Source of the DNA: a virus
Virus record (IMG/VR): IMGVR_UViG_3300009706_000036
Coordinates: 1-31,525 of that record
Length of the DNA: 31,525 bases
Strand: one strand, 5' to 3'
Shown here: piece by piece, positions 5,126-30,658 of the stretch
Layout of the letters: the number at the start of each line of letters is the position of its first letter
Position numbering within the stretch: the first letter of the stretch is position 1
Notes under the pieces: model-generated
The model's database searches: none
What the model was told of the DNA's origin: nothing
The model's input: the letters and a program-made list of their open reading frames with translations, nothing else
Position numbers and translations under genes: made by a program

Positions 5126-5134
5126 TAACCTACG

Positions 5135-5383: not shown

Positions 5384-5392
5384 TTCGAATGA

Positions 5393-5614: not shown

Positions 5615-5622
5615 AATGTTTC

Positions 5623-6537: not shown

Positions 6538-6545
6538 CTTACGGC

Positions 6546-6552: not shown

Positions 6553-6579
6553 CTCACCAACGCACTTCTTAAAGAAGGA

Positions 6580-16935: not shown

Positions 16936-17621
16936 TCAACTAACCCTGGCAGTATTGCATCCTCGGGCACGTCAGTTGGTGCCGCCGGAGGAGGCTCTGG
17001 AGGCGCGGGCGGCTCACAAGAGATGCCCAATCCCCACGACAAATAGCGAGGTTGAAGATCCAACAAGATGCGGACCGGATAATTCCGATTTTCTCTGATA
17101 GCCCAGTCAGCGCGGTCACTATATTCTTCGACATTCCCCCACCATAAGGTTGAATCCTTGCCATCGGCTGTCGCGAGCCTTCGATCACGATTGACCCAGC
17201 CCGCGCCACCGTTATAGCCCGATAGCGTAAACGCCCACCGATCACACTCCCGTGTTGCGAAGGACATCCTGTCGTAAAGGTATTTATCATATCGCGCAAG
17301 GGCACGCAATGCCCATTCCGGTTCATAGGGTTGGTTTGCTCCAAGGTAGTCCGAATACCTCATGGAGATCCAGTCGGCGGTGTCTGGTGTGAACTGCGCG
17401 AGTCCGCCGGCGTATGGTGACTGCGCGTCTGGACGCCATGCGGACTCTTGATGTATCTGTGCCGCCATCGTTGCGATAGGGGCATTCAAGCCCCATACAA
17501 AACGGGCGTTTCCGATTAAAGCGCGTTGATAGGTATAGGCGCGTTGTGGAATCTGCGCTGCGGCCGGAGCAGCAACGCCGAACAACACGAACAGCAACAG
17601 AAGGGAGGACAGAACACGCAT
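16917..17621 (-). CDS. Exported SLT-type lytic transglycosylase (endolysin)
   Basis: A 234-residue protein with a signal peptide (residues 1-22, ending PAAAQ) and an SLT/lysozyme-like domain: catalytic E59 in AQIHQESAW, AGGLAQFTPDTADW (71-84) and SGYNGGAGW (134-142). The C-terminus is proline-rich (PPAPPEPPPAAP). It should cleave the glycan strands of peptidoglycan in the periplasm, either to lyse the host or to act on the wall during entry. Export by Sec means it would not strictly need a holin to reach the wall. The gene begins immediately after the holin-like gene's stop, so translation is probably coupled. Confidence 0.88.
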   Translation of the reverse strand: MRVLSSLLLLFVLFGVAAPAAAQIPQRAYTYQRALIGNARFVWGLNAPIATMAAQIHQESAWRPDAQSPYAGGLAQFTPDTADWISMRYSDYLGANQPYEPEWALRALARYDKYLYDRMSFATRECDRWAFTLSGYNGGAGWVNRDRRLATADGKDSTLWWGNVEEYSDRADWAIRENRNYPVRILLDLQPRYLSWGLGISCEPPAPPEPPPAAPTDVPEDAILPGLVECDHTK

Positions 17622-17945
17622 TTAGATACCAAGGGTCAAGCCGGCGATTACCGCGAGGACAACAATAGCACGTGCCAGGATACGTGCGGGTCCGAGTGAG
17701 GAGTTCTCTAAGGTTTCATCCACAGCAACGGTGTTGCTGAAGAGTGTGCGGTCTGCAAGATACGCGAGAACGATGGCATTGATGACCTGCAAGTTCTTGA
17801 AGACAAGAACGGGAATCTGCTGAAGCGCGATATAGCCCACCACACCAAGCGCGACGACGAGCAACACCCATAGAACACCGTTACGCTTGATTGCCGCAGT
17901 GGTGGCGCCGGTCTGATTTTTGACGAATGCAATAATTGAACTCAT
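17622..17945 (-). CDS. Putative holin
   Basis: A 107-residue hydrophobic protein with likely membrane segments near 23-43, 48-68 and 88-106, a basic N-terminus and a polar loop around 68-86. Size, number of helices and its place directly before the transglycosylase make a holin the likeliest role, releasing or activating the lysis enzymes by membrane permeabilisation. The ATG has AAGGAG about 6 nt upstream. I could not assign a specific holin family with certainty. Confidence 0.65.
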   Translation of the reverse strand: MSSIIAFVKNQTGATTAAIKRNGVLWVLLVVALGVVGYIALQQIPVLVFKNLQVINAIVLAYLADRTLFSNTVAVDETLENSSLGPARILARAIVVLAVIAGLTLGI

Positions 17946-17954
17946 ATAATCTCC

Positions 17955-18263
17955 TTAGTGGGTTTTATCTTTCGTAGGGTCTTTATGCCAAGATTGTTTC
18001 CGCAACCATGTCATGGCGCCGGTTTTACTATCGCGCAGGATAATGTCGCGTTTACTTTTCCGAGCGTGTAGACGAATTCGTTCACCCTCTTCTTCTACGC
18101 CTACATACTTAGCGTAGCGTTCCCACCGACGTTTCGGTGCTTTGGTCGCCATTACGCCGTCCATATCGGTTTCGAGTACGTCTGCACCAGCGAAGGTATC
18201 TTCGTATAGTTGTACGAATTCTTCTTCGGTGTAGGTAGCTTCGTCGATCTGCTTACGCGTCAT
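17955..18263 (-). CDS. Small hypothetical protein
   Basis: A 102-residue protein with an acidic N-terminal half and a basic C-terminal half (KRRWERYAKYVGV, then HARKSKRDIILRD). No family recognised. It overlaps the upstream duplicated-domain gene by 11 nt and precedes the holin-like gene by 9 nt. It may be a minor head or replication accessory protein, but nothing specific supports this. Confidence 0.55.
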   Translation of the reverse strand: MTRKQIDEATYTEEEFVQLYEDTFAGADVLETDMDGVMATKAPKRRWERYAKYVGVEEEGERIRLHARKSKRDIILRDSKTGAMTWLRKQSWHKDPTKDKTH

Positions 18264-19146
18264 CGTCTTTTTTCTTTCTTCTCAACCCTATTCGAGGCGG
18301 ACCGCCGGGTTCACCTTTCGGTCCGACACCTAAGCCAGCAACTTCACCACCACCGACAGCATTAGCTGAAGCGTCCTCGATACGCATCCGCATGACTTCG
18401 GCCTTTTCCAAGATGGCTGCGTTGAGCGCCATCTTCTTCATCTCTGGCTTCTCCACCGTGCCGTATTGATGTTTCGGAATCTTGTTCGGTGTCCCGTATC
18501 CCTTGATACCGTAGATTTTTCCATCAGACTTGTCGATCATAAAGACGCCGCGTCCCCCGTGCGAGACTCCGCCCTGCACGGCATCGATATTGATATATTT
18601 CGATTTGTCCTTGATCGTGAGTTTATCTCGGTCTTGTTTGGGGGTACGCGTATATTCACCGCTTTGGTCTTTGGCTTTAGCGAGAATTTTATTCAGCTTG
18701 TCCACCAGCGGCTGCACATCACGGGCGGTGACGTTCAACGGAAGTTCCCGTTCTTGTAATGACTCCTGTAACTCTGGATGACCCGTCATCAACTTCGTCA
18801 TATTCCTTATATCTGGCGCCTGCACCGTGCCGTATTGGTGGCTCGTATTCGGTTTTCCATATCCTTTGGCACTGTAGATCTTTCCATTGGACTTGTCAAC
18901 CGTGAAGATGACCTCGCGGCCGCGATGGCGCAGTCGGCCTCCCGACCCAACAACCGTGATATCGATAAAGGTTGTTTTTCTGGGGTCGCGAGCAAAAGAT
19001 ACTCCGAGTTCACTATGTATGTTCTTATTAAGCGCGTGAAATTTTTTATTCAGTGTGACCAACACTGATTCAACGTCTCGCCAATCGACGGCGCCGCGGC
19101 CTTTAGCTTCATCCAACTGACGGAGAATTTTCTGAAACAATGACAT
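18253..19146 (-). CDS. Protein with duplicated domain and capsid-targeting-like N-terminus
   Basis: A 297-residue protein with two copies of a beta-rich unit. Copy 1 (about 58-113) has RHRGREVIFTVDKSNGKIY then AKGYGKPN and HQYGTV; copy 2 (about 184-236) has HGGRGVFMIDKSDGKIY then IKGYGTPN and HQYGTV. The N-terminus MSLFQKILRQLDEA ends in L-x-E-A, which resembles the T4 internal-protein signal (MKTYQEFIAEA) cut by the prohead protease. The C-terminus has a Gly-rich stretch and a basic-acidic end. AGGAG about 9 nt before the ATG supports the start. I infer a head-packaged protein; its activity is unknown. Confidence 0.65.
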   Translation of the reverse strand: MSLFQKILRQLDEAKGRGAVDWRDVESVLVTLNKKFHALNKNIHSELGVSFARDPRKTTFIDITVVGSGGRLRHRGREVIFTVDKSNGKIYSAKGYGKPNTSHQYGTVQAPDIRNMTKLMTGHPELQESLQERELPLNVTARDVQPLVDKLNKILAKAKDQSGEYTRTPKQDRDKLTIKDKSKYINIDAVQGGVSHGGRGVFMIDKSDGKIYGIKGYGTPNKIPKHQYGTVEKPEMKKMALNAAILEKAEVMRMRIEDASANAVGGGEVAGLGVGPKGEPGGPPRIGLRRKKKDDDA

Positions 19147-19149
19147 ACT

Positions 19150-19545
19150 CTATAGCTCCTGTAATCGCCGGACGATACGCGCATCAGTCGGGATAGTGTC
19201 GGTCACAATATCATATCCATCGATACCGACGATCACTGATGGCATTACCATCAGATACTCTAAAAAAGGTTTGAGGACACGATACGACTTCTCATCGTCG
19301 CTTTTGACGAATAAGAGTCGCACCATGGCTTCTGGTCCAAAGACGTTGAGCAGTCCGATCAAATGATTGAGAATCAGCCGCTCGCTTAACTGCCGGGTCG
19401 TCAGATATCGACGACAGAGCCGTTTGACGTATTTGAACCGTTTATAATCTTCCGCAAACTCGCTAATACTGACACACTGCGGGTTGTCGTAAGATCGCGT
19501 AGCGTACAAAAGCGCGTTCTTTGATGTCAGATTAACAAACTCCAT
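19150..19545 (-). CDS. Conserved phage protein (DUF7207-like)
   Basis: A 131-residue mostly helical protein whose pattern (YVKRLCRRYLTTRQLSERLI then LNHLIGLLNVFG, KPFLEYLMVMP) matches a conserved family I recall from T4-like cyanophages, annotated DUF7207. No function is known to me; the family name is from memory. It starts just after the coiled-coil gene, with an overlap-like spacing of 2 nt, and lies in the late cluster. Confidence 0.65.
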   Translation of the reverse strand: MEFVNLTSKNALLYATRSYDNPQCVSISEFAEDYKRFKYVKRLCRRYLTTRQLSERLILNHLIGLLNVFGPEAMVRLLFVKSDDEKSYRVLKPFLEYLMVMPSVIVGIDGYDIVTDTIPTDARIVRRLQEL

Positions 19546-19547
19546 TG

Positions 19548-19766
19548 TTACACAGATGGTGGCGGTTGTGTATCACCCTCACCTTTGGACAAACCCTCAA
19601 GCACTTCAATAGCTCCTGCTACACGATGATACTGTTCGAGGCCAAGCTGTTTGGCTCCTTCCAAGTCTTCAAGTTCTTTAACGATCCGCCCCTGAAGTTC
19701 TTTCAATTCATCCAGTTTTGTGTTCATCCAATCCCTCTCATGTTGTTCGTACTGTCCGTCAATCAT
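19548..19766 (-). CDS. Small coiled-coil protein
   Basis: A 72-residue acidic protein, mostly one coiled coil (about residues 10-60), with a polar tail. GGAGG lies 4 nt before the ATG, and a CTAAATA late element sits about 27 nt upstream, so late expression is likely. A structural or assembly role is possible but unproven. Confidence 0.65.
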   Translation of the reverse strand: MIDGQYEQHERDWMNTKLDELKELQGRIVKELEDLEGAKQLGLEQYHRVAGAIEVLEGLSKGEGDTQPPPSV

Positions 19767-19792
19767 ACAACCTCCATTGTGTTTTCTACCGG

Positions 19793-19799
19793 TATTTAG
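19793..19799 (-). promoter_or_regulatory. T4-late-type promoter CTAAATA
   Basis: CTAAATA on the minus strand in the 29-nt gap between the nucleotidase and the coiled-coil gene. Predicted initiation near 19787 leaves a 21-nt leader with a strong ribosome site. It likely reads through the DUF7207-like, duplicated-domain and lysis genes. Confidence 0.6.
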
Positions 19800-20314
19800 A
19801 TCAATTGATGAACTACCTTTTTCACCTGTGCAATGTCACCGTCCTGATAGACAACTCCAACACCACCGGCTTGCTGCCATTCGTTAATGTTCTTTGCGAA
19901 GTCGTCGATGAGGATGTTCGCTGTGCCATCTCGTTGCTTGGCAAACCGTCGCTTTTCTGAACGACGCACCGCGTGAAATTTGTTCATGGATGGGCGAAAA
20001 TTGTGAAGATGGCGCTTACACCAGATGAGTTTGCCAGTTCCAGCGGATGGCCAATTAGACGGTGTAGCGGTGAGAATAGACGAATGGAGCGGACCGATCA
20101 CACTCCACAACTGCTGCGCGTGTGATAGCATAGGAAGATCCATCCAGAACGTCGGCCATTCCTTCGCCAGACGTGCGGATCCTTGGGGGGAATCCCATAA
20201 TTTTTTGAAGGTGGCGTCGCTGTGTCCTCTAATATCTACCTCAAAGAAGCGTTCTGCTGCCTCGACAAAGTTGGCTAATACACCGTCCATGTCACAATAA
20301 ATTTGTGGAGTCAT
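19796..20314 (-). CDS. 5'(3')-deoxyribonucleotidase, HAD family
   Basis: A 172-residue HAD-fold phosphatase. Motif I is DMDGV (D8 nucleophile, D10 acid/base), motif II is LTATP near 80-84, a conserved Lys follows in the central region, and motif IV is LIDDFAKNINEW near 135-146. This matches the dNT-1/NT5C-type nucleotidase family, which dephosphorylates dNMPs, and similar genes occur in T4-like phages. Its role could be nucleotide balance or nucleotide salvage. A GTAGAG/CTCTAC hairpin-like repeat lies just before its ATG and no clear ribosome site was found. Confidence 0.85.
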   Translation of the reverse strand: MTPQIYCDMDGVLANFVEAAERFFEVDIRGHSDATFKKLWDSPQGSARLAKEWPTFWMDLPMLSHAQQLWSVIGPLHSSILTATPSNWPSAGTGKLIWCKRHLHNFRPSMNKFHAVRRSEKRRFAKQRDGTANILIDDFAKNINEWQQAGGVGVVYQDGDIAQVKKVVHQLI

Positions 20315-20321
20315 TGTATCT

Positions 20322-20345
20322 GTAGAGGGGGGTTATATTCTCTAC
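20322..20345. repeat. Short inverted repeat at gene junction
   Basis: GTAGAG and CTCTAC flank a 12-nt loop across the stop codon of one gene and the upstream region of the nucleotidase gene. It could fold into a weak hairpin that affects translation or RNA ends. A 6-bp stem is also easily found by chance. Confidence 0.3.
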
Positions 20346-21103
20346 GTCCCAAGTTTTCTTTCAGAGGAATGCTCCGTGGAGGGATAGAAGGTCACCTCGT
20401 CGTTCTTCGTGTTATGCCTGTGAAGCAAATCGTCCTGCACTTTGTCATCCGCTTTCGCACGAAGTTTCTTTTCCCGTTCAGCTTCTTTTTGTGATGACGA
20501 TTTCTTCGTTGGATTAAAATTGCCAGACGGCGTGTCGTCTTCCTGCGCCTTCTCCGGCGCCTTCTCCGGCGCTTTGGCGACCGTGTCCTTCTTACGATTC
20601 ATTTCAGCATTACTTACCGGACCCTGAAACGATTCTAACCCGAAGGGCAGATCATCTTCATCGAGTGACTCCCGGTGTAGATCGGAAAATTTCTTTCCCT
20701 TTCGGAAGTCCCTATACAGTTCCTTCTCCAATTTTCTCCAAGAAGCCATGGACGATTTTTCTTTGTCCGTCTGGGGACGACCCGAATGCGCCATTTTAGA
20801 CCGTCGATCCGCGGCCCGCTGATCCCACGGCTTCACTTCATTAGGAGTAGCTGTAACAGCCCCGAGACGATAGCGAATACGGTTAGGTGGCCAAACGTCT
20901 GGCTTAAGGTTAATCTTTCCGTCAGGGTGTATAAACATGACCATGTGCTTAACACCCTTGTGCGGGCCCTTGTCCACCGTTACAGCGTCGCCCTTTTTGT
21001 AGCGGCTTTCGTGTATCGTTTCCAAGGTGTCAGACACCTCGTTAACTAACTCGGATGAGACACCAAAGAGGTCACACAGGTCTTGTTTGAGCGTTGGTGA
21101 CAT
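20342..21103 (-). CDS. KOW-like protein with long charged tail
   Basis: A 253-residue protein from ATG 21103, with AAAGGA before the start. Residues 1-35 are helical and end in I-H-E-S, a prohead-protease-like site. A KOW/SH3-like beta motif follows (RYKKGDAVTVDKGPHKGVKH, about 34-53, then HPDGKINLKP near 59-68), and then a long, low-complexity, Lys/Glu/Ser-rich tail from about 150, including repeated PEKA units. It resembles an internal head or DNA-binding protein, but no family is recognised. The upstream in-frame extension lacks support. Confidence 0.6.
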   Translation of the reverse strand: MSPTLKQDLCDLFGVSSELVNEVSDTLETIHESRYKKGDAVTVDKGPHKGVKHMVMFIHPDGKINLKPDVWPPNRIRYRLGAVTATPNEVKPWDQRAADRRSKMAHSGRPQTDKEKSSMASWRKLEKELYRDFRKGKKFSDLHRESLDEDDLPFGLESFQGPVSNAEMNRKKDTVAKAPEKAPEKAQEDDTPSGNFNPTKKSSSQKEAEREKKLRAKADDKVQDDLLHRHNTKNDEVTFYPSTEHSSERKLGT

Positions 21104-21181
21104 AGAATAATCCTTTGAGACAAACAGAAAATGGCAGTTGGCGTCCGAAGACACCAACTACCCATGATGTTACCGCCGAGT

Positions 21182-21622
21182 TTAGCTCGGCGAGGTCGAC
21201 GCGGACGGACTTCCCGAAGCTGAAGCCGAACTCGACGGACTGGTCGAAGTTGACGGACTGACCGACGCAGACGGACTCTGCGACGCAGATGGACTCTGCG
21301 ACAAGCTGGTTGAGCTTGACGGACTGTACGAACTCGACGGGCTCTGCGAACTCGACGGACTGTTCGACTGCGAACTCGACGGACTGAACGATGCAGATGG
21401 ACTATTCGACTGCGACGAAGACGGACTATATGACGGTGACGGACTCTGTGATGCAGAGTTCGCGGTAACCTGTCCGCCTATCGCAACAATAATCTCTTCA
21501 CCCCACGGGTGTCTAAATGTCCAACCCTGTTCAGTGGCATACGTGTTTGCAGCGGCAGCGTTATTCGGCTGCCCCCATGTTGGCTTATTCGCGTCAGTTG
21601 GATCTGATCCCCATCCAGACAT
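21182..21622 (-). CDS. Ser/Pro repeat protein, probable virion surface or fibre protein
   Basis: A 146-residue protein. Residues 1-56 form an ordered-looking head with GWTFRHPWGEEIIVAIGG, which resembles small head-decoration or structural proteins of marine T4-like phages. Residues 57-146 are almost entirely S and P with a few Q, N, T, A, Y, F and L, in repeats of S-P-S and SQS type. Such low-complexity Ser/Thr-rich tails can be extended and are possible O-glycosylation targets, which is of note because the genome encodes a GT4 enzyme and UDP-sugar enzymes. The start has AAGGAG about 7 nt upstream. Its role in the particle is inferred. Confidence 0.65.
   Translation of the reverse strand: MSGWGSDPTDANKPTWGQPNNAAAANTYATEQGWTFRHPWGEEIIVAIGGQVTANSASQSPSPSYSPSSSQSNSPSASFSPSSSQSNSPSSSQSPSSSYSPSSSTSLSQSPSASQSPSASVSPSTSTSPSSSASASGSPSASTSPS
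21185..21450 (-). repeat. Degenerate Ser-Pro coding repeat tract
   Basis: About 265 nt of imperfect repeats of a 9-18 nt unit (minus-strand codons for S-P-S and S-Q-S), visible on the plus strand as recurring cgacggact and gcagacggactctg units. Slipped-strand changes could alter the number of units. Confidence 0.75.
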
Positions 21623-21637
21623 ATTCGTACTCCTTGA

Positions 21638-23974
21638 TTAAGATGATGCCGGCGAGGCGGCGCTCTTCGGTTGATTAGCCTTGGCTTGCTGCTCGCGAGC
21701 CTTCTGTTGCACATCCCGAAGTTTTGCCGCCATCATTGTGTTCGCTTGACGGGTCTTGAGAGCGATCAATTCTTGCTGTTGCGTCGTTCGCAATTTCTCC
21801 GTTTCGGTTGGAGGTTTTATTACAGCCGGTGGGGTAGCAGCTTCCTTTACCCACTGATCGTCCTTTTCCACCATCACATACTTGCGAGGTGCTTTGATAA
21901 TACGATCACCCCACTTGGAACCCGGCTCCGGCCCTAGATTCACATAGATCCAATTACCATCGATGCGTTCCACTGTCCCGTCAAATCCCGCGCCTCCGCG
22001 AACGCGAAGGCCGGCGCGAACCTTATCACCAACCTTGACGTGCTGGTCAGGGTTGGCGGCGAAGCCCGACCGGGCCGGTGCTTCGTTTATACCGTAACCT
22101 TTAGGAGTTACGTCTTTCACATTAAACTTGGCTTTACCCTTCGCAACTCTATCCGCGGCATCCTTTGTCAAGTTGCCGTCTCGATCAAAGAGTTTTGCAA
22201 GATGTGGCGGGAGTTTAATTTTAGATGCTTCGTCCATTTTCATGGCTTTGCGGGTTGTCGGTTTCAGTAACTTCTGATCCCATTTGATGCCTAGCTCAGT
22301 AGCTCTGTTCAGCATCTGGCCAGCGAGGTTCCATGCTTCAACGGAATGACTATTATTCAAGAATATTTTTATCGCAGCATTAACGCTAGCCGCGGGCGTT
22401 GTTTTCTTCAAAGGATTCTGACCTCGACCCAGCGAATTGCTGATAATCCTTGCGGCGCGCCTCTGATCTGCGGAGCTTGCGGGTCGGCCGCCGAGGCGGT
22501 TGGAAGAAGGAAGAGTCGCCTCGTCCATTTGTTCCCCGGCTTCCTCTATCTGCTCGACATCTTCTTTCACCACGTTGTGTGCCGGAATTTTCTCCGACTC
22601 ATACTTACCAACGTCGATGACGTAAAACGGACTGCCGTGACGGTCGCCTTTATCGTAACGAACAACTTTCCCCCGACTTGAGCGGCTCGGCGAATCGCTA
22701 ATCTTTACCCATGTACCGGGATCGAGGACGAGACCGCGGTTCGGATTGACGCGTAACGTGCCATGTTTAGCTATGATTTTCTCAATCGCCTTGTTATATG
22801 CACGTTGGGACGCGGCCGAAACGCGCTTGCCTTCTTTCACGTAGGACTCCCCAGCAACAATCACTTTGTCTGCGCTAACTTTATCTTTACCGGCCGCACC
22901 AAAATCCACGATGTAATATGCGTCTCCAGCATACGGACCTGAGGAAGCTGCTGGGCGATTCGGTCGAGGCGCTAGGCCGCGCGCAGGGTGGTAACTAACA
23001 ACTCTCCCTTTCGCGAGATCGCCTCCGGTCGCGCCGCGGGCCCGCGCCCGGTCGAATCCACTGATCTTTACGCGTGTACCGGGCTTCAGATTCCGTAGCG
23101 ACCAACCGAACTTTTTAGTCGAAGTTGACAACTCAGCCAATCCTTCTTTATACTGCTGACCTGGTTTGATAACACTCACCACGCGACCACGAGCATTCTC
23201 AATAGAAAGAGTGGCCTTTGGGTGGTCGCGTTGGAAGTTTTGGACCCCATAGGGGAGTTCCTTCTTGCTGACATCCCACTGTTGATCCACCACCTTATTA
23301 TTGACAATGGCTACAATAGTAAATGTCTGTGGAGCCTCAAGCAACCCGATATTAAATTGTCCTTCGCTGAGATTAAACATTTCGCGTAGCCCCATATGTC
23401 GTCGTACTTGGTTAAACAAGTCTTTTGCTACCTTCTGTGGCACATGTGACGGAATCCCCGCCCCAAATGCCTTAAAGTCGTTCGCTTTCGCGAGTGCCCG
23501 CATCTTAGATGCCGACATCCCCGACACATCGTCTGCGTCGGGATCGCGATTACCAGGCACCGCAATAACCTGAAAGTGGTCAATGTCAATATGCTTGGCT
23601 GCATTATATTTAGGAGATTTGCGAGGGACAAGATATTGTGCGAACTTTTGGAAGTCACGCACACGGTCACTACCGACGATCATCAGAATTCGACGATAGC
23701 CGAGAGAGGACACCTCCGCAAACGCATCAACTGGCGTTCGTACTGACACATTGCTACTAACGAACAGTTTTGGAAAGAATTTCCGCAGAAACGCGACCTT
23801 GTTTCTGAACGGCAGTGGGTTCTTTCGCGAATCTTGAGTCTGCGAGGGGTACACACGCACATCAGCACTATTGCGCTGGGCAATCTGATTGACGAAGTTA
23901 ACGAGTGCGCCGTGCCCAGTGGTCGGTGGATTGAAACGACCGAAAACGAGAACGACGGTGCGAGATGATGGCAT
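21638..23974 (-). CDS. NMN-adenylyltransferase-like protein fused to SH3/KOW-like domains
   Basis: A 778-residue multidomain protein. Residues 1-200 are a nucleotidyltransferase of the NMNAT/cytidylyltransferase type: GRFNPPTTGH (12-21) is the (H/T)xGH motif and SASKMRA (154-160) is the SxxxxR-like C-terminal motif. Three SH3/KOW-like beta units follow near 298-372, 418-470 and 646-703, then a coiled-coil/Ala-Gln-Lys tail to the end. Prohead-protease-like sites (L/I-x-E before A/G) lie at 202-205, 211-214, 476-479 and 629-632, all in linkers; M-D-E-A also occurs at 483 and 580. A CTAAATA late promoter lies 17 nt upstream. Known T4-like phages carry the nucleotidyltransferase domain, as I recall. 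Substrate (NMN or other) is not proved. Confidence 0.8.
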   Translation of the reverse strand: MPSSRTVVLVFGRFNPPTTGHGALVNFVNQIAQRNSADVRVYPSQTQDSRKNPLPFRNKVAFLRKFFPKLFVSSNVSVRTPVDAFAEVSSLGYRRILMIVGSDRVRDFQKFAQYLVPRKSPKYNAAKHIDIDHFQVIAVPGNRDPDADDVSGMSASKMRALAKANDFKAFGAGIPSHVPQKVAKDLFNQVRRHMGLREMFNLSEGQFNIGLLEAPQTFTIVAIVNNKVVDQQWDVSKKELPYGVQNFQRDHPKATLSIENARGRVVSVIKPGQQYKEGLAELSTSTKKFGWSLRNLKPGTRVKISGFDRARARGATGGDLAKGRVVSYHPARGLAPRPNRPAASSGPYAGDAYYIVDFGAAGKDKVSADKVIVAGESYVKEGKRVSAASQRAYNKAIEKIIAKHGTLRVNPNRGLVLDPGTWVKISDSPSRSSRGKVVRYDKGDRHGSPFYVIDVGKYESEKIPAHNVVKEDVEQIEEAGEQMDEATLPSSNRLGGRPASSADQRRAARIISNSLGRGQNPLKKTTPAASVNAAIKIFLNNSHSVEAWNLAGQMLNRATELGIKWDQKLLKPTTRKAMKMDEASKIKLPPHLAKLFDRDGNLTKDAADRVAKGKAKFNVKDVTPKGYGINEAPARSGFAANPDQHVKVGDKVRAGLRVRGGAGFDGTVERIDGNWIYVNLGPEPGSKWGDRIIKAPRKYVMVEKDDQWVKEAATPPAVIKPPTETEKLRTTQQQELIALKTRQANTMMAAKLRDVQQKAREQQAKANQPKSAASPASS

Positions 23975-23990
23975 AGTTTTCCCTATAGAC

Positions 23991-23997
23991 TATTTAG
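23991..23997 (-). promoter_or_regulatory. T4-late-type promoter CTAAATA
   Basis: CTAAATA on the minus strand in the short gap after the ligase-like gene. Predicted initiation near 23985 gives an 11-nt leader to the NMNAT-like gene that includes AGGGA as a ribosome site. Confidence 0.6.
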
Positions 23998-24013
23998 AGA
24001 AAATGTGTTCCCA

Positions 24014-25243
24014 CTATTGCCAATCTTTTGGTGCGAGGAAGTTCAATCGGGAGAACTCCAGACGGTCTACGAGCTTTATCGTCTTCCCCCCGTGGGAGGT
24101 TGCCACAAAGCCCTCAGGGCCTGTAACTCGAAACCCACTCGCTGTTGGCACGAACGTGCTGATACGGGAAACTTGCGCCAACTTTCGCACGATGATCGTT
24201 TTAGCGTTCATGACGGCTTGATGAAGCTGAAACCAATTCAGGTACCCGCGAGCGTTGCCACGAATCTGTTTCATGACCGCGTTGAACTTCGCTTCCTGAT
24301 CCGTTTTGCCCCTCTCGGAGCCTCGCTTCCCGGCTTCCTTGTCTCGACGTGCAGCTATAAACTCCATCAGTTCGGTGACGGTCGACGCAGACACCCTGTT
24401 GCTACGCACACGCTGGTTGATAAACATCTGTACCAGCATATGCAGGGGTTCGTGTGTCATGACTTCGTACACAGATGACGCAACCTGACTCTGTAACGCA
24501 GTGACGTGCGACAGAGCAAGCGTAAAGTCGCTTTGTTCCGCGTTAGTGAAGGTGACGGTACCGGACAGATCGTCAAACGAAGCATCCAGCACAACCGCGC
24601 GGCCGGACTTGCCTAAGGACGCAAAGGCGCCAGGGGTAATGGGTGAAGCGGTGTAACTGTCAATTGTTGAACCGCGGCCGCTATACATGGTATGTACGAC
24701 AATGCCCAGATGAGCGCGACTGATCTGTTGCCCGAGGTTACTGTTTGCTTCGACCGCATAGAGAATAGTGTTAGGACGGAAGGTTACGTAGGACTTCTCG
24801 TCTATGGTCTGTGACTTGATATCGTCAGTAAAGAGCAAGTCACCCTGAAGAATCTGCTTTGAGTGAAGCGGTTGTAGTTCCTTAAGGCACGCCTGGAGTT
24901 TCGCACCAAGTCCACTACTGCCATAGGTCGCGTTAATCTGTGCCTTCGACTTCATGAGCTTCGGGTTCTTGGCGAACGCGGACTTCGTTGCGACAAAGAA
25001 TTTGTGATCGGCGGGATCAGGACCAAACACCACCGATGGCGCACCATCCCATTTCGTTGTGACGTTCATCGAGCGAGACACACCACCGTGTTCCAGCATG
25101 TGCCCGAAGTTCTTGAGGACATCCAGTGCAAACGTCGCACCTGAGGCACCGTCATCCAACATCAAATCTTCAAGATGTTGAAGATGCGTCAGTTTACCGG
25201 CCTTAGATTCTTGTAGATGTCGTGCAAATGAAATTAGCGGCAT
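24014..25243 (-). CDS. Ligase-like nucleotidyltransferase (DUF6267-like)
   Basis: A 409-residue protein from ATG 25243 (GGAGATACG before it; a 54-residue in-frame extension upstream lacks support). TKWDGAPS (63-70) fits the K-x-D-G nucleotidyl-transfer motif I of ATP-dependent DNA/RNA ligases and capping enzymes, with K64 as the nucleotide acceptor. FFVATKSAF (82-90) fits motif III, and ILQGDLLF (131-138) fits motif IV, with D where many ligases have E. FRPNTILYAVE (155-165) follows as a beta strand. The family was annotated DUF6267 in phages as I recall. The N-terminus MPLISFARHLQES ends in L-x-E-S, like a capsid-targeting sequence. It probably makes a covalent nucleotide adduct, but substrate is unknown. 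Confidence 0.7.
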   Translation of the reverse strand: MPLISFARHLQESKAGKLTHLQHLEDLMLDDGASGATFALDVLKNFGHMLEHGGVSRSMNVTTKWDGAPSVVFGPDPADHKFFVATKSAFAKNPKLMKSKAQINATYGSSGLGAKLQACLKELQPLHSKQILQGDLLFTDDIKSQTIDEKSYVTFRPNTILYAVEANSNLGQQISRAHLGIVVHTMYSGRGSTIDSYTASPITPGAFASLGKSGRAVVLDASFDDLSGTVTFTNAEQSDFTLALSHVTALQSQVASSVYEVMTHEPLHMLVQMFINQRVRSNRVSASTVTELMEFIAARRDKEAGKRGSERGKTDQEAKFNAVMKQIRGNARGYLNWFQLHQAVMNAKTIIVRKLAQVSRISTFVPTASGFRVTGPEGFVATSHGGKTIKLVDRLEFSRLNFLAPKDWQ

Positions 25244-26016
25244 CGTATCTCCAAGCGAAGCGATTTGTAAAACTCGGGGTGTGCGACTATCAAATCCCAC
25301 CACATTTTGATCTTCCGATGAAACACTGGCAGCGCAGCGTGTTTCGGTGTCGTCTTGAACGCTCCTGTATATACCGTATACGTGGATTTCGCGATAAACG
25401 GCCACGGAAGAATTTCGGTTTTCATCTGTTTCAACGCATCACGGTAATTAAGATCGCCATATATCGCCCACATCTCTAATGCTACGTCGTGCGAGTACGC
25501 TTCGATTTCGTCATAGTCACCCAGATAAGTTTGTTCCGCCTTCAGATCGATACCATCCGCCTGAGAACGATACACACGGGCATTGGTCTCTTCTCCCTTA
25601 ACACTCCGATACACATCTTGATGTCGATGAACCAATTCGTGTAGCAGGTATGACCAAAAATAGAAACGGCGTATGGCCCACGTTTTGCGCGACCATTGCT
25701 GCCGTCGCCCCCCTTTAGTTACATGCCATTCAAGTCGCACATCAGCCGAAGAATGTTGAAGCGGAAGAAGTTCGTTTGGCAACCATTGTGCCGTGATCAG
25801 GACGGACTTCTTGGGTATACCCTTTTCACCACTGCCGACAACATTTAAGACACCATATTCCTCCGTGACGGCATTAAGACGGTCTAAAAATGACGCCAAA
25901 TTAAACGCACGTCCTCGATAACAGTCCGGCCGTTTCACCGGAAAGACATCTTTCACCGCATCCTGTAATACCACTGCGTCCATTATTACTCGGCGTTGAA
26001 GTGCCTCGACTTGCAT
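25234..26016 (-). CDS. Putative HExxH zinc metallopeptidase
   Basis: A 260-residue protein from ATG 26016, with AGGAGG 4 nt before it. HELVH at 126-130 is a zinc-binding HExxH, preceded by a hydrophobic helix (FYFWSYLL), and a possible third ligand is E170 or E172 in DYDEIEAYSHD (167-177), 40-46 residues on, in line with gluzincin spacing. There is no signal peptide. The gene is behind a divergent late promoter and overlaps the ligase-like gene by 10 nt. A phage or host protein as substrate is possible. The family is not recognised and the assignment rests on the motif. Confidence 0.6.
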   Translation of the reverse strand: MQVEALQRRVIMDAVVLQDAVKDVFPVKRPDCYRGRAFNLASFLDRLNAVTEEYGVLNVVGSGEKGIPKKSVLITAQWLPNELLPLQHSSADVRLEWHVTKGGRRQQWSRKTWAIRRFYFWSYLLHELVHRHQDVYRSVKGEETNARVYRSQADGIDLKAEQTYLGDYDEIEAYSHDVALEMWAIYGDLNYRDALKQMKTEILPWPFIAKSTYTVYTGAFKTTPKHAALPVFHRKIKMWWDLIVAHPEFYKSLRLEIRCR

Positions 26017-26030
26017 TGTGCCTCCTATTT

Positions 26031-26037
26031 TATTTAG
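26031..26037 (-). promoter_or_regulatory. T4-late-type promoter, left-reading
   Basis: CTAAATA on the minus strand. Predicted initiation near 26025 gives a 9-nt leader to the metallopeptidase ATG with AGGAGG in it. This is half of the inverted repeat. Confidence 0.7.
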
Positions 26038-26054
26038 GGGGAACAAAGGCACCC

Positions 26055-26061
26055 CTAAATA
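26055..26061 (+). promoter_or_regulatory. T4-late-type promoter, right-reading
   Basis: CTAAATA on the plus strand followed by GGACT and then the ATG at 26067. By T4 late-promoter geometry, transcription would begin about 6 nt past the element, which is the A of the start codon. The transcript may therefore be leaderless or have a very short leader. Confidence 0.65.
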
Positions 26062-26066
26062 GGACT

Positions 26067-26756
26067 ATGCAATCCTTTCGCGAACATTGCCGGGATATCA
26101 CAGAAGCTCTCGACAAACCCTACCCGTACCGCGTTGTCAACAGCCGGGGCACGGGAAGCGGCGATGGCCCCGGTGTTTTTGAGGCCGAGTTTACCGTGGC
26201 CACTTCCGGCTTGAAGTATAATGTTCACTTTGCGAAACGCGTAGAGCAAAATATTCCTCGCACCAACGGCCGCGGTCAAGTGATCGAGCCACGGTGGGAG
26301 AGTGTAGAAAAGCCGTGGGAGTTTACGTTCGCGCTTAAGCGCACACACGGAAGCGGCGCCCCCGGTGATCCGAAAACCGATACGGAGACGTATGGCGTCT
26401 CGCGCACCGGACATGCGTTTAGTGTCTTTGCGACCGTGATTGCTGTGATGAAAGAGTTCATTACCAAGTATCATCCCGCCCTCATCTACTTTAGTGCCAC
26501 GGAAAGTTCTCGCGCAAAACTCTACGACCGTTTCATGAAGCTCGTACCCCGTTCCGTGTCGGGTTATGCGGGACACAAGTTGACTGGACAATCACGACGT
26601 AGCGCGTCCGCACTCGGTGATTGCCACCGAGGTTCCGGTTTTCTGCGCGATCCCGAACAGAAGTGTCACGCCGATTGGATTGGCCCGGGTAACTTTGTAG
26701 TCGCAAGACGCGACGTACCCCTCACGGCCATTCTCGCCGTGACTCAGGCCCATTAG
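26067..26756 (+). CDS. Conserved phage protein with capsid-targeting-like N-terminus
   Basis: A 229-residue protein and the only convincing plus-strand gene here. The N-terminus MQSFREHCRDITEA fits the T4 internal-protein pattern (MKTYQEFIAEA) and ends in I-x-E-A, the prohead-protease consensus. The segment FSATESSRAKLYDRFMKLVP (about 151-170) then a SGYAG-type turn matches a conserved phage family I recall from marine T4-like phages. The residues between are beta-rich and end in VARRDV. Its activity is unknown. ATG 26067 is preferred to one at 26001 because the promoter sits between them. It ends in a stop overlapping the stop of the convergent helicase gene. Confidence 0.7.
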   Translation: MQSFREHCRDITEALDKPYPYRVVNSRGTGSGDGPGVFEAEFTVATSGLKYNVHFAKRVEQNIPRTNGRGQVIEPRWESVEKPWEFTFALKRTHGSGAPGDPKTDTETYGVSRTGHAFSVFATVIAVMKEFITKYHPALIYFSATESSRAKLYDRFMKLVPRSVSGYAGHKLTGQSRRSASALGDCHRGSGFLRDPEQKCHADWIGPGNFVVARRDVPLTAILAVTQAH

Positions 26757-28147
26757 TCATCAGTTTTCAAGTGTGCAAGTGGTCGCCGAGCGGTGCGATC
26801 ACGAAATGGCTTGGTAAGATTGGTTGCGACAAATTGGTCTGGTGTCGGTGCAGTCTGTATCTGCTTCGGATCATACAGCTTCATACGAGAAGTATCAATA
26901 CCCAGAATGAACTTCTGAAAACTCTGTCGTTTGGCATATCGATTCTTTAATACATATGCCTGTATCTGATTATTCTTATCCAAGTCATCGCTTGTGGTCA
27001 AGGCAAAGATGAAGTCCGCCGTCTGTGCGATGGCAAATGACTCACTAATCTTTTCTAACCCCGGCGCTGTCGAGGACGCCCCATCACGATTGAACTGCGC
27101 GGCCGTAAAGACGGGAATGTTCATTTCCACCGCCAACCCACGCAACTCTTCCGCAATAGATTTGTTATAAGTGTAGCTGTTGACGGCATTGCCCATCTTT
27201 ATGCGCGAGGACGCACAGATCGACAGGTAATCCACGAACAGAATGTCCGGCGTGAAGTCCTGCTTGAGCTTCAATTCGTGGAGCAACGCACGGAAGTGCC
27301 CTGTGTGTGCAGCCGCTGTCGGATACTCCTTAATGATCATTCGCCCGGTGCTGGTTTGCTGAAGTGTTTTCAGTTTCTTGAGATATCGATCCCGCGACAA
27401 CGCGATCACATCATCAATCGGAATGTCCATGAGGTTTGCATCGACACGTTCAGCAATGCGTTCTTCCGCCATCTCCAATGTGATGTACAACACCTTCTTA
27501 CTCATACGGGCACACGCAGCCGCCATATGCACAAGAAACAAACTCTTTCCGACATTCGTACCTGCCAGCACCACATTCAATGTCTTTCTAGGAATGCCAT
27601 TCTTGGTCATGGTGTTGAACACGTCGAGATCAAACGGAATCCGCGCTTCCGCACGATGATAGAAGTCGTACCGTTCTTCCGCGTCACCGAAGAAATCGTG
27701 GCCGACGTGTGTATCGAATGAAACGGCCAACGCTTCTTTGAGAATGTCGGGAATTGCGTGAGGGTTCTCTTTCGGGTTGTCAAGCATTCCGACACTATGA
27801 CGTAGAGCGATATACAACGCTCGTTCTTGACAGAACTTCTCCGTCTCTGCGATGAGAAATTCGTGCTGTGATGAATCTTGTGGTTCGGTCTGTTCAAGCT
27901 CGTCGATGACCGTGTTCGCCTGTTTCGCTTCCGCCTCACTTAGATTCGGGACATCATCCAGCATTAACCGTAGAACCGACACCGAAGGAAGTTGGTGGTA
28001 TTCATCGAAGAACTTTTGATACACACCAAAGACGGTCGCACATTCTCCAGTCGGAAAATATTCACCCTTGAGATACGGCGCCGCCCGCTCGGCATAGCTT
28101 TGTGATGCGTACAATTGTCGAAGCACTGTTCGCTCAAACAAGAGCAT
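26753..28147 (-). CDS. 41: Replicative DNA helicase, T4 gp41-like (DnaB family)
   Basis: A 464-residue DnaB-family hexameric helicase. The Walker A motif is GTNVGKS (196-202). Walker B is in DILFVDYLS with D306. YITLEMAEER (221-230) is the H1a-type motif with E225. The N-terminal 150 residues are helical as in gp41. It unwinds DNA 5'-3' at the fork with the primase encoded at 14282-15292. The start ATG overlaps the upstream stop (TGATG). The stop codon overlaps that of the plus-strand gene, with no room for a terminator. GTP or ATP as fuel cannot be told. Confidence 0.9.
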   Translation of the reverse strand: MLLFERTVLRQLYASQSYAERAAPYLKGEYFPTGECATVFGVYQKFFDEYHQLPSVSVLRLMLDDVPNLSEAEAKQANTVIDELEQTEPQDSSQHEFLIAETEKFCQERALYIALRHSVGMLDNPKENPHAIPDILKEALAVSFDTHVGHDFFGDAEERYDFYHRAEARIPFDLDVFNTMTKNGIPRKTLNVVLAGTNVGKSLFLVHMAAACARMSKKVLYITLEMAEERIAERVDANLMDIPIDDVIALSRDRYLKKLKTLQQTSTGRMIIKEYPTAAAHTGHFRALLHELKLKQDFTPDILFVDYLSICASSRIKMGNAVNSYTYNKSIAEELRGLAVEMNIPVFTAAQFNRDGASSTAPGLEKISESFAIAQTADFIFALTTSDDLDKNNQIQAYVLKNRYAKRQSFQKFILGIDTSRMKLYDPKQIQTAPTPDQFVATNLTKPFRDRTARRPLAHLKTDD

Positions 28148-28479
28148 CAGTGAACGCCTTTCGTCTCCGAACTGAGAAGCGCATCAAAATTTGATAGCGA
28201 AATATAGCTTAACCACGCCATCAACACCTCACCACAGAAATAATCGAAGTCCTCTGTGACATGAAACCCTTTAGGCGACTCATATACTTCCGTCTCAAAC
28301 TTTGTCGGTACCATACCGTCCGGGCCAACTTTCTTCGAAACACGAAACGTTTTGAAGGAAAATACGACACCACGATACGGACCGGCTATGATTTCTAGAC
28401 CTAAAATAGCTTCGCCCTTCTTCTGTGGAATCAATCGGGGCATGATCATTTCGAGAATGTTTGATTCTGATTCACTCAT
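28147..28479 (-). CDS. Conserved small protein between uvsX and helicase
   Basis: A 110-residue protein. Its pattern (PRLIPQKKG, GLEIIAGPYRGVVFSFKTF, KFETEVYESPKGF and EVLMAWLSYI) matches a family conserved at this exact place between uvsX and 41 in T4-like cyanophages, as I recall. The function is unknown to me; a role in recombination or helicase loading is suggested only by position. It overlaps uvsX by 8 nt and the helicase start by one. Confidence 0.75.
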   Translation of the reverse strand: MSESESNILEMIMPRLIPQKKGEAILGLEIIAGPYRGVVFSFKTFRVSKKVGPDGMVPTKFETEVYESPKGFHVTEDFDYFCGEVLMAWLSYISLSNFDALLSSETKGVH

Positions 28480-29539
28480 CGGCCGTCACCTCATCTGTAA
28501 TATTCACAACCGGTTCGCCTGTATAAAGGAACGTCGCCTTCATGTGCGGGGCCAAGTCCTGTAGGAGGCTGTCCGTAAAATATTTAGTAGGCTTAGCGTA
28601 AACCTGTGATTCGAACGCCTTCATGTCGCCAGGGAACACATACTTGTTTCCGACCTTCGTCACCAGCCCCGAGTTCACCGCGTGCGGCAGCAACCCATAA
28701 TACCGATCCAGTCCCCCGTCAAACAGGATGCGCGTCTCCACCACTGACTCTTCTTTCGTCATACGGGATTTGACCATTTTCGCCTTGACAATGTTTCCAA
28801 TGATTGTCTTGTCGCTATCCCGCTCTTTCTTCTTGCTGAGAAACACGATGGTGTCTGCGGCATACTTCGCACCTGAACCGCCCGCCATTTCCTTGGTTGG
28901 GAAATACGCGCCGATCACAGCATAGGTGTGGGTCGTAACGATCATCGGTACTTGCACCTTCGCCATTTTCAGACGCAACACACGAAACGCACCCTTGATC
29001 AACTGACTCTTCGTCATGTCACGGGTGTCTTTGCCCTCTGTCATGTCACCGATTTCCTTGCCACTCGGTAGCGCAGACAGAGAATCGAGAATGATCAGAA
29101 ACGGAAACCGATCTTCTTCTGGGATGTTCGCATAGGTATCCAACATCTTCAATGCAACGGTGCGGAACCGTTCAATGGATTCCGGCTCGGACTTCATGAC
29201 ACGTTCAGGATCAATACCCCGTGAAGAAAACATGGCATTCGTAACCGCTGATTCTGTATCGAAGTATGCGACCCGTGCTTTATCATTGGCTGCCAAGTAT
29301 TGCGACATAATAGAAAGCGCAAAAAAAGACTTCCCTACTGCCGGGTCACCCGCGAGGACTAACGCTTTATTATTGGGGAGACCACCAAACATATCTCCCG
29401 ATAACGCGGCGTTCAATATGTAACTGCCGCTGTCGATGAACCCCGTAAATTCAGCCGCACTCTTGCCGTCTGATGCCAATGCAGTATCGGGATCGCCGAT
29501 GTCCACAACGAACTGCCTAAAAAGGTCTACTTTGGCCAT
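28472..29539 (-). CDS. uvsX: UvsX RecA-like recombinase
   Basis: A 355-residue RecA/UvsX-family protein. Walker A is GDPAVGKS (64-71), the catalytic Glu is E96 in FDTESA, and Walker B is LIILDSL with D152. It forms filaments on single-stranded DNA and starts strand exchange in recombination-dependent replication. Length is close to T4 UvsX (391 residues), somewhat shorter at the C-terminus. A sigma70-like promoter lies upstream, with the ribosome site AGGAG about 12 nt before the ATG. It begins the uvsX-helicase unit. Confidence 0.93.
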   Translation of the reverse strand: MAKVDLFRQFVVDIGDPDTALASDGKSAAEFTGFIDSGSYILNAALSGDMFGGLPNNKALVLAGDPAVGKSFFALSIMSQYLAANDKARVAYFDTESAVTNAMFSSRGIDPERVMKSEPESIERFRTVALKMLDTYANIPEEDRFPFLIILDSLSALPSGKEIGDMTEGKDTRDMTKSQLIKGAFRVLRLKMAKVQVPMIVTTHTYAVIGAYFPTKEMAGGSGAKYAADTIVFLSKKKERDSDKTIIGNIVKAKMVKSRMTKEESVVETRILFDGGLDRYYGLLPHAVNSGLVTKVGNKYVFPGDMKAFESQVYAKPTKYFTDSLLQDLAPHMKATFLYTGEPVVNITDEVTADE

Positions 29540-29575
29540 GATAATTTCAAGCTCCTGTCTTTATTCATATTAACT

Positions 29576-29605
29576 ATTTTATCACACTTTCGCGATATTA
29601 TTCAA
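29576..29605 (-). promoter_or_regulatory. Sigma70-like promoter before uvsX
   Basis: TTGAAT (29605-29600), an 18-nt spacer and TGATAAAAT (29584-29576, -10 TAAAAT). It overlaps the end of the membrane protein gene and belongs to the same TGTGWTA family as the other minus-strand sites. Predicted leader about 30 nt. Confidence 0.6.
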
Positions 29606-30650
29606 CAGAACGGTCGCGGCGGACGCGGACGGCACGTCTACCGAGACGTATAGACTTTGGGCGAATGGCGTCCAGTGTCGTATTTTCTAATGACGGTTCC
29701 GCCAGTGTTTCGGTGTCGACCGCGGTATCCACCCACGCCTGAGCCTTCAGTATATCCACTGGTGTATCTGGTGGGACACTATTAGGTTTCTTCACGGCCT
29801 TCTTCGCAGTCTTCTTCACAGTCTTCTTTACCTGTGGTGATGTATTCTGGTCAATGTCCGGTACGCTACTCGGCGTAATGCGCTTACCGGGAATTGACTG
29901 CGAGGCAAGCAACAACGCAATGGCCATTGGATCGAACACGGAGATGATGATAAGAATGAACACGGTCACGACGTGATCAAGAATATTGATATCGGTGCTG
30001 CCATACCATGCTTGCGCCACAAACATCAACGGGCCCACATCAACGGACTGCTCTTGTGTACGCTGATTCACCGCCAACAATTCCTGCTCTGCGATCTGGA
30101 GTGCTTCACCCGAGATATTCAATTGCGTTTGAAGTTCTTGTTCAAGGACTTGCTGCTCTCGTAACACATTCACCGCACCGTTGATGCTGGTGAGTCGGTC
30201 GTTCACCACAAGTCCCCCGATAACTTGATCCGCGAGATCGCTGCTTGTGAGCGTGGTGATAGCTGTTGCGCGGCGAGTATAGACGACGTTCGCTAACTCA
30301 ACATTCCGTTCTGCTGCGGAACGTTCTGCGAGTAGTTGCGCCATCGGTGCTTGCTGTGTCAGGTACGCCCGCGAAAGATACCCGAAGATACCGATACCCG
30401 TGATCACTATCAACACAAAGACGCCGACACTCACATAAGCGACTAACGGTTTCGGTGAGGTGCGCCAATACCGGAATACCCACGACGCGCCGACGAGCTT
30501 GGCGACTTCGAGTGTACCTCCCATGATTACAATAGGCCAGAACACACTCACAAAGATGTATGCTAATCCGGTAACTGAGTAGAACGCGGCGATGCTAGAG
30601 AGGCCGATGCCCGTCACAAAAAGCATTATCCGCATAAAGGTAGACGACAT
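29598..30650 (-). CDS. Conserved membrane protein with Lys-rich tail
   Basis: A 350-residue protein with probable membrane segments near 7-25, 30-50, 67-90 and 215-245, a coiled-coil region between (about 105-200), and a Lys-rich cytoplasmic tail (KKTVKKTAKKAVKKP, about 275-290). The opening FYSVTGLAYIFVSVFWPIVI with GGTLEVAKLV is like a membrane protein I recall as common in marine T4-like phages. It sits between the methyltransferase and uvsX, and AGGAG lies about 7 nt before the ATG. It may hold a replication or entry complex at the membrane; this is a guess from context. Confidence 0.75.
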   Translation of the reverse strand: MSSTFMRIMLFVTGIGLSSIAAFYSVTGLAYIFVSVFWPIVIMGGTLEVAKLVGASWVFRYWRTSPKPLVAYVSVGVFVLIVITGIGIFGYLSRAYLTQQAPMAQLLAERSAAERNVELANVVYTRRATAITTLTSSDLADQVIGGLVVNDRLTSINGAVNVLREQQVLEQELQTQLNISGEALQIAEQELLAVNQRTQEQSVDVGPLMFVAQAWYGSTDINILDHVVTVFILIIISVFDPMAIALLLASQSIPGKRITPSSVPDIDQNTSPQVKKTVKKTAKKAVKKPNSVPPDTPVDILKAQAWVDTAVDTETLAEPSLENTTLDAIRPKSIRLGRRAVRVRRDRSVE

Positions 30651-30658
30651 GTGTACTC

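Follow-up and report, generated by a model that had tools for sequence, protein, structure and literature searches.

Predicted late proteins with candidate T4-type capsid targeting leaders, among them a ligase-like DUF6267 protein, beside an NMNAT-like multi-module protein in a T4-like phage fragment

The DNA analysed here, referred to as the window, is the entire IMG/VR record IMGVR_UViG_3300009706_000036 (31,525 bases), a fragment of a T4-like phage. We studied the region that sits between its gp41-like gene (26753) and primase (14282), with ribonucleotide reductase (11419) beyond. With a probability that we put at about 0.8, the products of this region are late proteins that a T4-type capsid targeting sequence, in the form of a short leader at the N-terminus, directs into the prohead. 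Head packaging is well supported at the level of protein families; for the window's own proteins we infer that they are packaged, cleaved and injected and that they act at time zero of infection. The frames taken to be uvsX (28472), gp41, primase and ribonucleotide reductase are putative assignments.

Three proteins of the region begin with short, amphipathic leaders having x-E-A/S at their end. The first (24014–25243, minus strand) is a ligase-like protein of 409 aa belonging to the DUF6267 family (PF19782, E = 1.6e-91; phrog_455) with the N-terminus MPLISFARHLQES. Its start is the ATG at 25243, preceded by GGAG, and not the GTG of the longest open reading frame (ORF); the leader comprises residues 1–13 (25205–25243, minus strand), with a predicted cut after E12. 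The second (18253–19146, minus strand) has 297 aa, the leader MSLFQKILRQLDEA (residues 1–14; 19105–19146, minus strand), two copies of a DKS(N/D)GKIY..KGYG module and a match to phrog_3274 (E = 2e-6). The third (26067–26756, plus strand) has 229 aa, the leader MQSFREHCRDITEA (residues 1–14; 26067–26108, plus strand) and weak similarity to DUF6934 and phrog_16075. The starts of the latter two proteins are plausible as well. MSLFQKILRQLDEA and MQSFREHCRDITEA have the same spacing (F4, a hydrophobic residue or H at 7, a hydrophobic residue or C at 8, L or I at 11, E13 and A14), while MPLISFARHLQES is a shorter form, shifted by two. If a leader is defined as about 10–19 residues with hydrophobic positions 4 and 7 and an (L/I)-x-E end, the three proteins possess one and those encoded by genes 20342 and 21638 do not. 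The extended or the long form of the leader pattern is found in the first 20 residues of 3 of the 47 genes on a hand-curated window list (24014, 18253 and 26067), as compared with 1 of 411 interior windows of those genes; the resulting P of ~2e-4 is optimistic, since the long form was written after two of the three leaders had been seen. The capsid-targeting-like N-termini that the sequence-only reading had assigned to these three proteins are therefore present. Proteins 24014 and 26067 are clear candidate carriers of a capsid targeting leader, and 18253 is a probable one.

The I-H-E-S site of the 20342 protein (start ATG 21103), which the same reading had placed beside these leaders, was rejected: it lies at residues 30–33 and lacks the hydrophobic 4/7 helix pattern. 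A single site of this kind is weak because the site alone occurs in the first 20 residues of 8.1% of relatives' ORFs (77/946). The protein at 17955–18263, starting with MTRKQIDEA, similarly has a protease-like site (residues 6–9) without the helix pattern. When further leaders were sought in about 27 kb of additional sequence of the same virus, none was found at a primary start and one matched at an internal ATG.

The leader is widespread among related viruses. The comparison covered 113 viral contigs chosen via two families of the region (33 via DUF6267 and 80 via the NMNAT-like family) and used a pattern shaped on the internal proteins (IPs) of T4, [FYLI]..[FY][LIMFV].E, located in the first 18 residues or just after either of the next two ATGs. 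Of 1,123 ORFs, 170 carried this pattern at the N-terminus, as against 53 of 13,696 interior windows. By their mature parts, the 170 proteins sort into 27 clusters, and 127 of them belong to the two query families. With the query families removed and the first ATG only, the frequencies were 55/946 at N-termini and 50/8,255 in the interior (9.6-fold, P = 2e-27); here and in the following tests related sequences were counted separately, so that P values are too small. The enrichment disappeared when E was replaced by D (1.1-fold), placed one position later (1.1-fold) or when the pattern was reversed (1.5-fold), none of these being significant; E one position earlier, corresponding to the short form, gave 4.6-fold. 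Phages without a T4-type head (P-SSP7, HTVC010P, T7 and lambda) had the pattern at 0 of 214 N-termini and in 14 of 1,943 interior windows. In T4, sampled as 49 kb with 65 coding sequences (alt not included), it matches IPII and IPIII only; IPI is missed, its site coming later.

The leader logo, M-K-S/T-F-K-E-Y/F-L/I-x-E-E/A/S, matches IPII and IPIII; an alignment with T4 internal proteins had been proposed in the sequence-only reading. In 151 of the 170 cases F is the first motif residue, and residue 4 is the commonest starting position (80/170). According to T4 genetics, residues 4 and 7 serve targeting and residues 8 and 10 processing, and D at position 10 inhibits processing while targeting is still allowed (PMC9026906). 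The logo fits both pairs of residues. Of 20 payload representatives, 17 had no Pfam hit at an E of 0.01.

The DUF6267 protein is the candidate for the ligase-like enzyme noted in the cluster; it has a KxDG block and ligase-like matches in a fold search. The blocks KWDGAP, EGFV and KLVDR are invariant or near-invariant in 17 DUF6267 sequences, with K64, D66, G67, E377, G378 and K390 fully invariant; the blocks downstream of KxDG are presumably motifs IV and V of the covalent nucleotidyltransferase (RNA/DNA ligase) superfamily. A model of medium quality (pLDDT 64.5) reached a best VIA-align Z of 7.7 (rmsd 3.8, 179 aligned), which is under 8 and below the level settling a fold, and 49 of the 50 matches listed were ligase or ligase-complex entries, in a search restricted to chains ranked by Foldseek. 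Foldseek itself gave no hit with E < 0.001, and the PDB sequence search one chance-level hit (E = 0.9). The leader, F/Y-x-x-(Y/F/H)-L-x-E, is kept in 37 of the 37 loci shown (a thirty-eighth, L016, starts at the contig edge and was left out); five of the 37 are the same virus, one is its sister and many others are mutually close. When the set was widened to the 72 sequences, window included, that have a DUF6267 gene as well as an NMNAT-like one, the DUF6267 leader was full in 50, short in 4 and absent by our patterns in 18, counts that lean towards leaders because the script favoured start codons yielding one. Four of these 18 (L122, L129, L152 and L157) start with F4..H7 and have an xEA site a short way ahead of the conserved domain, much like 26067. 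No leader is present on the DUF6267 proteins annotated in S-PM2, S-CRM01 and S-SZBM1, and none was found in frame upstream either.

The NMNAT-like protein (21638–23974, minus strand), a multi-module member of the cytidyltransferase family with 778 aa, is the best supported member of the putative packaged set, at family level. Together with the HExxH protein described below, it accounts for the NMNAT-like enzyme and metallopeptidase that had been noticed nearby. Its family membership is indicated by the motifs GRFNPPTxGH and SASKMR and by phrog_3041 (E = 1.3e-48); PF01467 of Pfam scored 17 bits, under the cut-off of 21, and the NMNAT domain had no hit in the PDB sequence search. The N-terminus, MPSSRTVVLVFGRFNPP, has no leader, nor has that of the sister virus. 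Across 80 viral loci of this family, the leader stands directly ahead of the nucleotidyltransferase domain, in a tight form in 46, a short form in 18 and neither in 16. When the sequences were thinned to below 75, 60 and 50% identity, a leader of either form was present in 49/64, 23/35 and 7/14, respectively. Since DUF6267 and the cytidyltransferase occur within one chain in phrog_455, the two proteins probably form a functional unit, and the leaderless NMNAT-like protein could reach the head by way of DUF6267. Both halves are present and adjacent in the window, but as two genes. Among the 72 sequences with both genes, 15 NMNAT-like proteins lacked a leader, and in 12 of these cases the DUF6267 leader was full or short. 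A mutual exclusion of the two leaders was considered and discarded, full leaders being found on both proteins in 32 of the 72 and on neither in 3.

The tail of the 21638 protein (residues 201–778) contains six [LIVM]xEA sites, a pattern picked after reading this sequence, versus 0.62 in shuffled tails, and none of 5,000 shuffles reached six. The predicted prohead-protease sites, all on the minus strand, are LLEA just past the NMNAT domain (residues 211–214, 23333–23344), which is also found in the sister virus (L007), IEEA (476–479, 22538–22549), MDEA (483–486, 22517–22528), MDEA (580–583, 22226–22237), INEA (629–632, 22079–22090) and VKEA (709–712, 21839–21850). When 621 proteins (100 aa or longer, drawn from eight sets) were ranked by their excess of [LIM]xE[AS], 21638 came fourth (P = 5.7e-4, uncorrected for 621 tests), after the scaffold of the same virus, a repetitive tail fibre and the S-CREM2 scaffold. 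Likewise, the NMNAT tails of 35 representatives with less than 60% identity contain 43 such sites versus 15.5 expected. A first de-replication by single linkage, which reduced the 80 sequences to 3 clusters (E sites 7 vs 3.6), was replaced by this greedy thinning.

These sites could be a matter of composition, the tail being an E/A-rich linker that is not cut, a reading that we regard as doubtful although it is the strongest of the alternatives. K at the E position is 1.6-fold raised in the same tails (43 vs 27.3), and part of the excess is therefore compositional; control ORFs, too, have 262 sites where 179.5 are expected. Composition does not readily explain the six sites observed against 0.62 after shuffling, nor why the versions with D (8 vs 14.2), Q (4 vs 6.0) and N (7 vs 8.6) are not raised. 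We thus read 21638 as a putative polyprotein with predicted cuts between its modules. By eye, recurring SH3/KOW-like modules of the form xxGxxVxxxxTGxxGxVxxxxxNYV lie between predicted cut sites at 21638–23974, at 20342–21103 and in the NMNAT tails of S-SZBM1 and S-CREM2. In the relative G005, the NMNAT-like protein (L075:12497-14608) has DGHHRW ahead and a zeta-toxin-like domain (PF06414, E = 9e-12) behind, and in DLP6 DGHHRW is at the opposite end, the modules being shuffled.

It is also conceivable, though unlikely, that only DUF6267 and the NMNAT-like protein with it are packaged, and that the N-termini of 18253 and 26067 resemble leaders by chance. Both have the rarer long form, and the pattern is partly post hoc. 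Moreover, no divergent homologue of 18253 turned up in the scan, in which 4 of 4 loci were 100% identical. However, residues 1–32 of 26067 are unchanged in the sister virus while the rest drifts (81% identity over the alignment), and the DUF6267 leaders of the four loci named above share its F4..H7 and xEA form. The AlphaFold2 model of 26067, built from two sequences, was unusable (pLDDT 39.1).

Virion proteomes of relatives connect the leader with the phage particle. For S-CREM2, 52 virion-detected proteins are given in Table 3 of PMC10665884. Across all 219 coding sequences (gp85 being truncated), the T4-derived pattern occurs in the first 30 residues of 6 of 28 detected non-structural proteins versus 3 of 167 undetected and 1 of 24 structural ones (Fisher P = 3.3e-4); broader leader definitions gave weaker results (P 0.007–0.022), and the T4-derived pattern was run afterwards. 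The six are a SAM lyase (PF23780), a kinase, a 'Cas9'-labelled protein (motif at about residue 18), gp13, gp136 and the cytidylyltransferase. The 'Cas9' label of gp12 had no Pfam match and is kept as the authors' label only. S-CRM01 g128 and this protein (L043:24412-24963 and L044:7704-10313) are 48% identical over about 150 N-terminal residues, where the leader is delayed and follows SRWxxWS. In S-SZBM1 the pattern is on 6 of 216 coding sequences (two at piece borders were left out), and among 30 detected proteins, assigned via protein length match, only the cytidylyltransferase has it (MRFRQFIIEA). The virion NMNAT-like protein of S-SCSM1 starts with MKSFLQFLKEA; virion status in this phage is the label of the record, the mass spectrometry (MS) list being known from text on the NMNAT and two others. 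The NMNAT leader was thus present in all three MS-positive phages checked. In the S-SCSM1 slot from the gp41-like gene to primase (ORFs 82–98), 7 of 17 ORFs are virion-labelled, all within 89–97; outside this slot, 1 of 48 ORFs matches the pattern. One stretch each was sampled for S-PM2, DLP6, S-CRM01, Syn9 and S-SCSM1. Virions of S-SM1 contained T4-GC190 (PMC3037559), and PMC10665884 mentions a virion NMNAT/cytidylyltransferase for S-CBWM1 and a virion kinase for S-CRM01; the latter kinase has the N-terminus MISFDQFLSEKK. The leader goes with packaging, yet other ways into the particle exist and some leader proteins stay undetected.

Such proteins might instead associate with the assembly core or co-purify, without being injected; their role would then lie in the producing cell or in building the head. 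The S-CREM2 authors allow for incomplete CsCl separation (PMC10665884), and late expression would fit. We consider this improbable, since the leader is associated with detection among the non-structural proteins of S-CREM2, and T4 proteins bearing this leader are injected according to PMC12373910 and PMC9391042. Highly improbable is a last alternative, in which the N-terminal helix is the conserved first helix of each fold with no targeting role: the motif is indeed amphipathic and conserved among close DUF6267 homologues, but it is common to 27 mature clusters, differs in length and can be missing from some members of a family, depends on E, with D not serving in its place, is absent in the four non-T4 phages and matches the T4 IPs.

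The loading of late proteins into the prohead by a T4-type leader calls for the corresponding head genes, and some of these were found. On a 58.6-kb contig of the same virus (G004), outside the window part, there are genes for a scaffold of T4 type (PF25623, E = 6.5e-53; phrog_237) and for a major capsid protein of gp23 type (PF07068, E = 2e-142; phrog_138). Judged by its length, the next longest contig would not reach these genes, so that a chimera is possible. A search for a gp21-type protease in the rest of the genome had been suggested in the sequence-only reading; an S77 prohead protease was found in a 168.8-kb relative (G005), where it adjoins a scaffold-like gene. Near the scaffold gene in L067 there are additional putative glycosyltransferases (by eye).

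Several results weigh against the packaging of this set. No S77 protease was found on the four incomplete fragments of the window virus that were searched. DUF6267 went undetected in all virion proteomes examined, and the S-SZBM1 copy is both leaderless and undetected. In S-SZBM1 two other textbook leaders belong to undetected proteins; in the S-SCSM1 slot only 1 of the 7 virion-labelled proteins has a leader, and an unlabelled neighbour, ORF87, matches the pattern. Among NMNAT representatives below 50% identity, just 4 of 14 have a tight leader and 3 of 14 a short one. The long leader form is 6.2-fold enriched on a mere 5 of 946 N-termini (7/8,255 in the interior), and one of the 5 is the sister of 26067. 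To these must be added the raised K and control-ORF counts given above. Furthermore, the virion evidence for packaging is that of relatives. The idea of a head-packaged set is strongly supported at family level, by the leader logo, its N-terminal enrichment, the specificity for E, the S-CREM2 association, the leaders of MS-positive NMNATs and the scaffold and gp23 genes; for the window's own proteins it is a prediction, and injection is argued from T4.

Late expression is suggested by late-promoter-like CTAAATA elements, nine of which occur in the window versus 1.9 expected (0/100 shuffles reach nine); six of the nine lie at most 60 nt upstream of a same-strand start. Such elements precede 26067 (26055–26061, plus strand, 5 nt ahead of the ATG), the 25234 gene (26031–26037, minus strand, 14 nt ahead; upstream of 24014), the NMNAT-like gene 21638 (23991–23997, minus strand, 16 nt ahead) and the 19548 gene (19793–19799, minus strand, 26 nt ahead; upstream of 19150 and 18253). 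Elsewhere in the region, CTAAATA falls within the 21638 gene. Two genes of the cluster had been described as close to such promoters; of the three leader genes, this applies to 26067 but not to 24014 and 18253, which are at best downstream in the same transcripts. With 5 nt between the plus-strand element and the ATG of 26067, the late transcript of this gene may start at or beside the ATG and be leaderless. The divergent pair at 26031–26061 is part of a perfect 10-nt inverted repeat (TATTTAGGGG / CCCCTAAATA).

The HExxH protein (25234–26016, minus strand), a putative metallopeptidase with a late promoter ahead, has no leader and no Pfam match. Its membership of the packaged set is uncertain, and we do not claim it as a tagged protein: across the loci, a leader was found on 1 of 17 HExxH proteins. 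A single protein of another virus (L085:3772-4758) has a leader, an HExxH metalloprotease and a polynucleotide-kinase-like HAD domain (phrog_415, E = 2e-7), with an IFEEA stretch between the domains; it belongs to a nine-member leader-bearing cluster, three members of which were examined. The window also encodes, at 21182–21622, a low-complexity S/P-rich protein starting with MSGWGSDPTDAN, which by eye resembles the virion-labelled ORF95 of S-SCSM1 (MALWGNSDN) in the same gene slot. Farther away are sugar-nucleotide and glycosyltransferase-like genes (2734–7554, judged from translations alone) and a tRNA-Ser (TGA) at 8517–8601. The DUF6267 gene is found at 100% identity on five further contigs, three of them longer than the window, and 18253, 26067 and 20342 are also 100% identical on four of the five. 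A megablast of window positions 17000–31000 against phages gave no match, nor did tblastn of 18253 against phages, and PADLOC had no hit on 10 proteins.

T-even phages are known to inject leader-tagged proteins, and the leader has served to find many of the genes (PMC12373910); a review proposes that T4-like phages generally package various proteins with such leaders (PMC9026906); in the excerpts of that review, 'cyanophage' occurs solely in a reference title. The window proteins share with IPI, IPII and IPIII the leader pattern, the E-directed site, the unrelated mature parts and the presence of a T4-type scaffold and gp23 in the same virus; two of the three leaders are longer (E at 13) and thus nearer to IPI. 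Unlike the T4 IPs, the payload is enzyme-like (ligase-like, NMNAT-like), and its cleavage and injection are predicted. As in the case of T4 Alt, a head-packaged ADP-ribosyltransferase (ART), the window would, by inference, supply a head-packaged enzyme of NAD-related chemistry; however, no ART family was among the family-search hits, and the reactions expected would be NAD+ synthesis or the joining of RNA ends, not the consumption of NAD+. The virion NMNAT/cytidylyltransferases of cyanophages (T4-GC190; S-SM1, S-SZBM1, S-SCSM1, S-CREM2 and S-CBWM1) are of the same protein family, and those of S-SCSM1 and S-SZBM1 occupy the same slot between the gp41-like gene and primase. The window form differs from them in lacking its own leader, in its 778 aa and many sites and in its position downstream of a leader-bearing DUF6267 gene. 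Polyvalent phage effectors (PMC9503650) are broadly similar in being multidomain and predicted to be delivered with the DNA, whereas the window has a T4-type leader and predicted prohead-protease sites. In the literature searched, with subscription papers and preprints outside it, we found no report of a leader on cyanophage virion enzymes or DUF6267, or of a multi-site NMNAT polyprotein. Compared with the known tagged internal proteins of T-even phages, the enzyme payload and NMNAT polyprotein are apparently new with respect to the papers searched.

In the mechanism that we propose, the N-terminal helix, hydrophobic near positions 4, 7 and 8 and ending in x-E, would bind the scaffold core. 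The prohead protease would cut after the leader E, and the freed enzyme would remain in the head and enter the cell with the DNA. The leaderless 21638 protein would probably enter with its DUF6267 partner and be cut by the same protease at several intermodule sites. At time zero of infection the payload might act in RNA-end or NAD+ repair against host defence: the combination of ligase-like, NMNAT-like and, in relatives, phosphatase-like proteins suggests RNA-end repair and NAD+ supply at DNA entry, directed against tRNA-cutting or NAD+-depleting defences. Tagged proteins of T4 inhibit restriction enzymes (PMC12373910), which makes a counter-defence role plausible by analogy. A broader and tentative idea, which we consider rather unlikely, is that environmental phages of the T4-like kind load their heads with a modular repair kit consisting of DUF6267, NMNAT polyproteins cut in the head and, in relatives, a polynucleotide-kinase-like HAD protein, a SAM lyase and a kinase. 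This kit would undo tRNA-cutting or NAD+-depleting defences before phage gene expression, the leaderless NMNAT of some viruses riding on DUF6267.

In proteomic studies of cyanophages, virions have repeatedly been found to contain NMNAT-like enzymes and kinases, and these studies cannot tell cargo from contamination. A T4-type leader on such virion enzymes gives a mechanism and a testable sequence rule. Early counter-defence is the role suggested by the predicted payload, which comprises ligase-like, NMNAT-like and HAD-like proteins, a SAM lyase, a kinase and many unknowns, and the set of proteins injected by these abundant viruses could become predictable from sequence.

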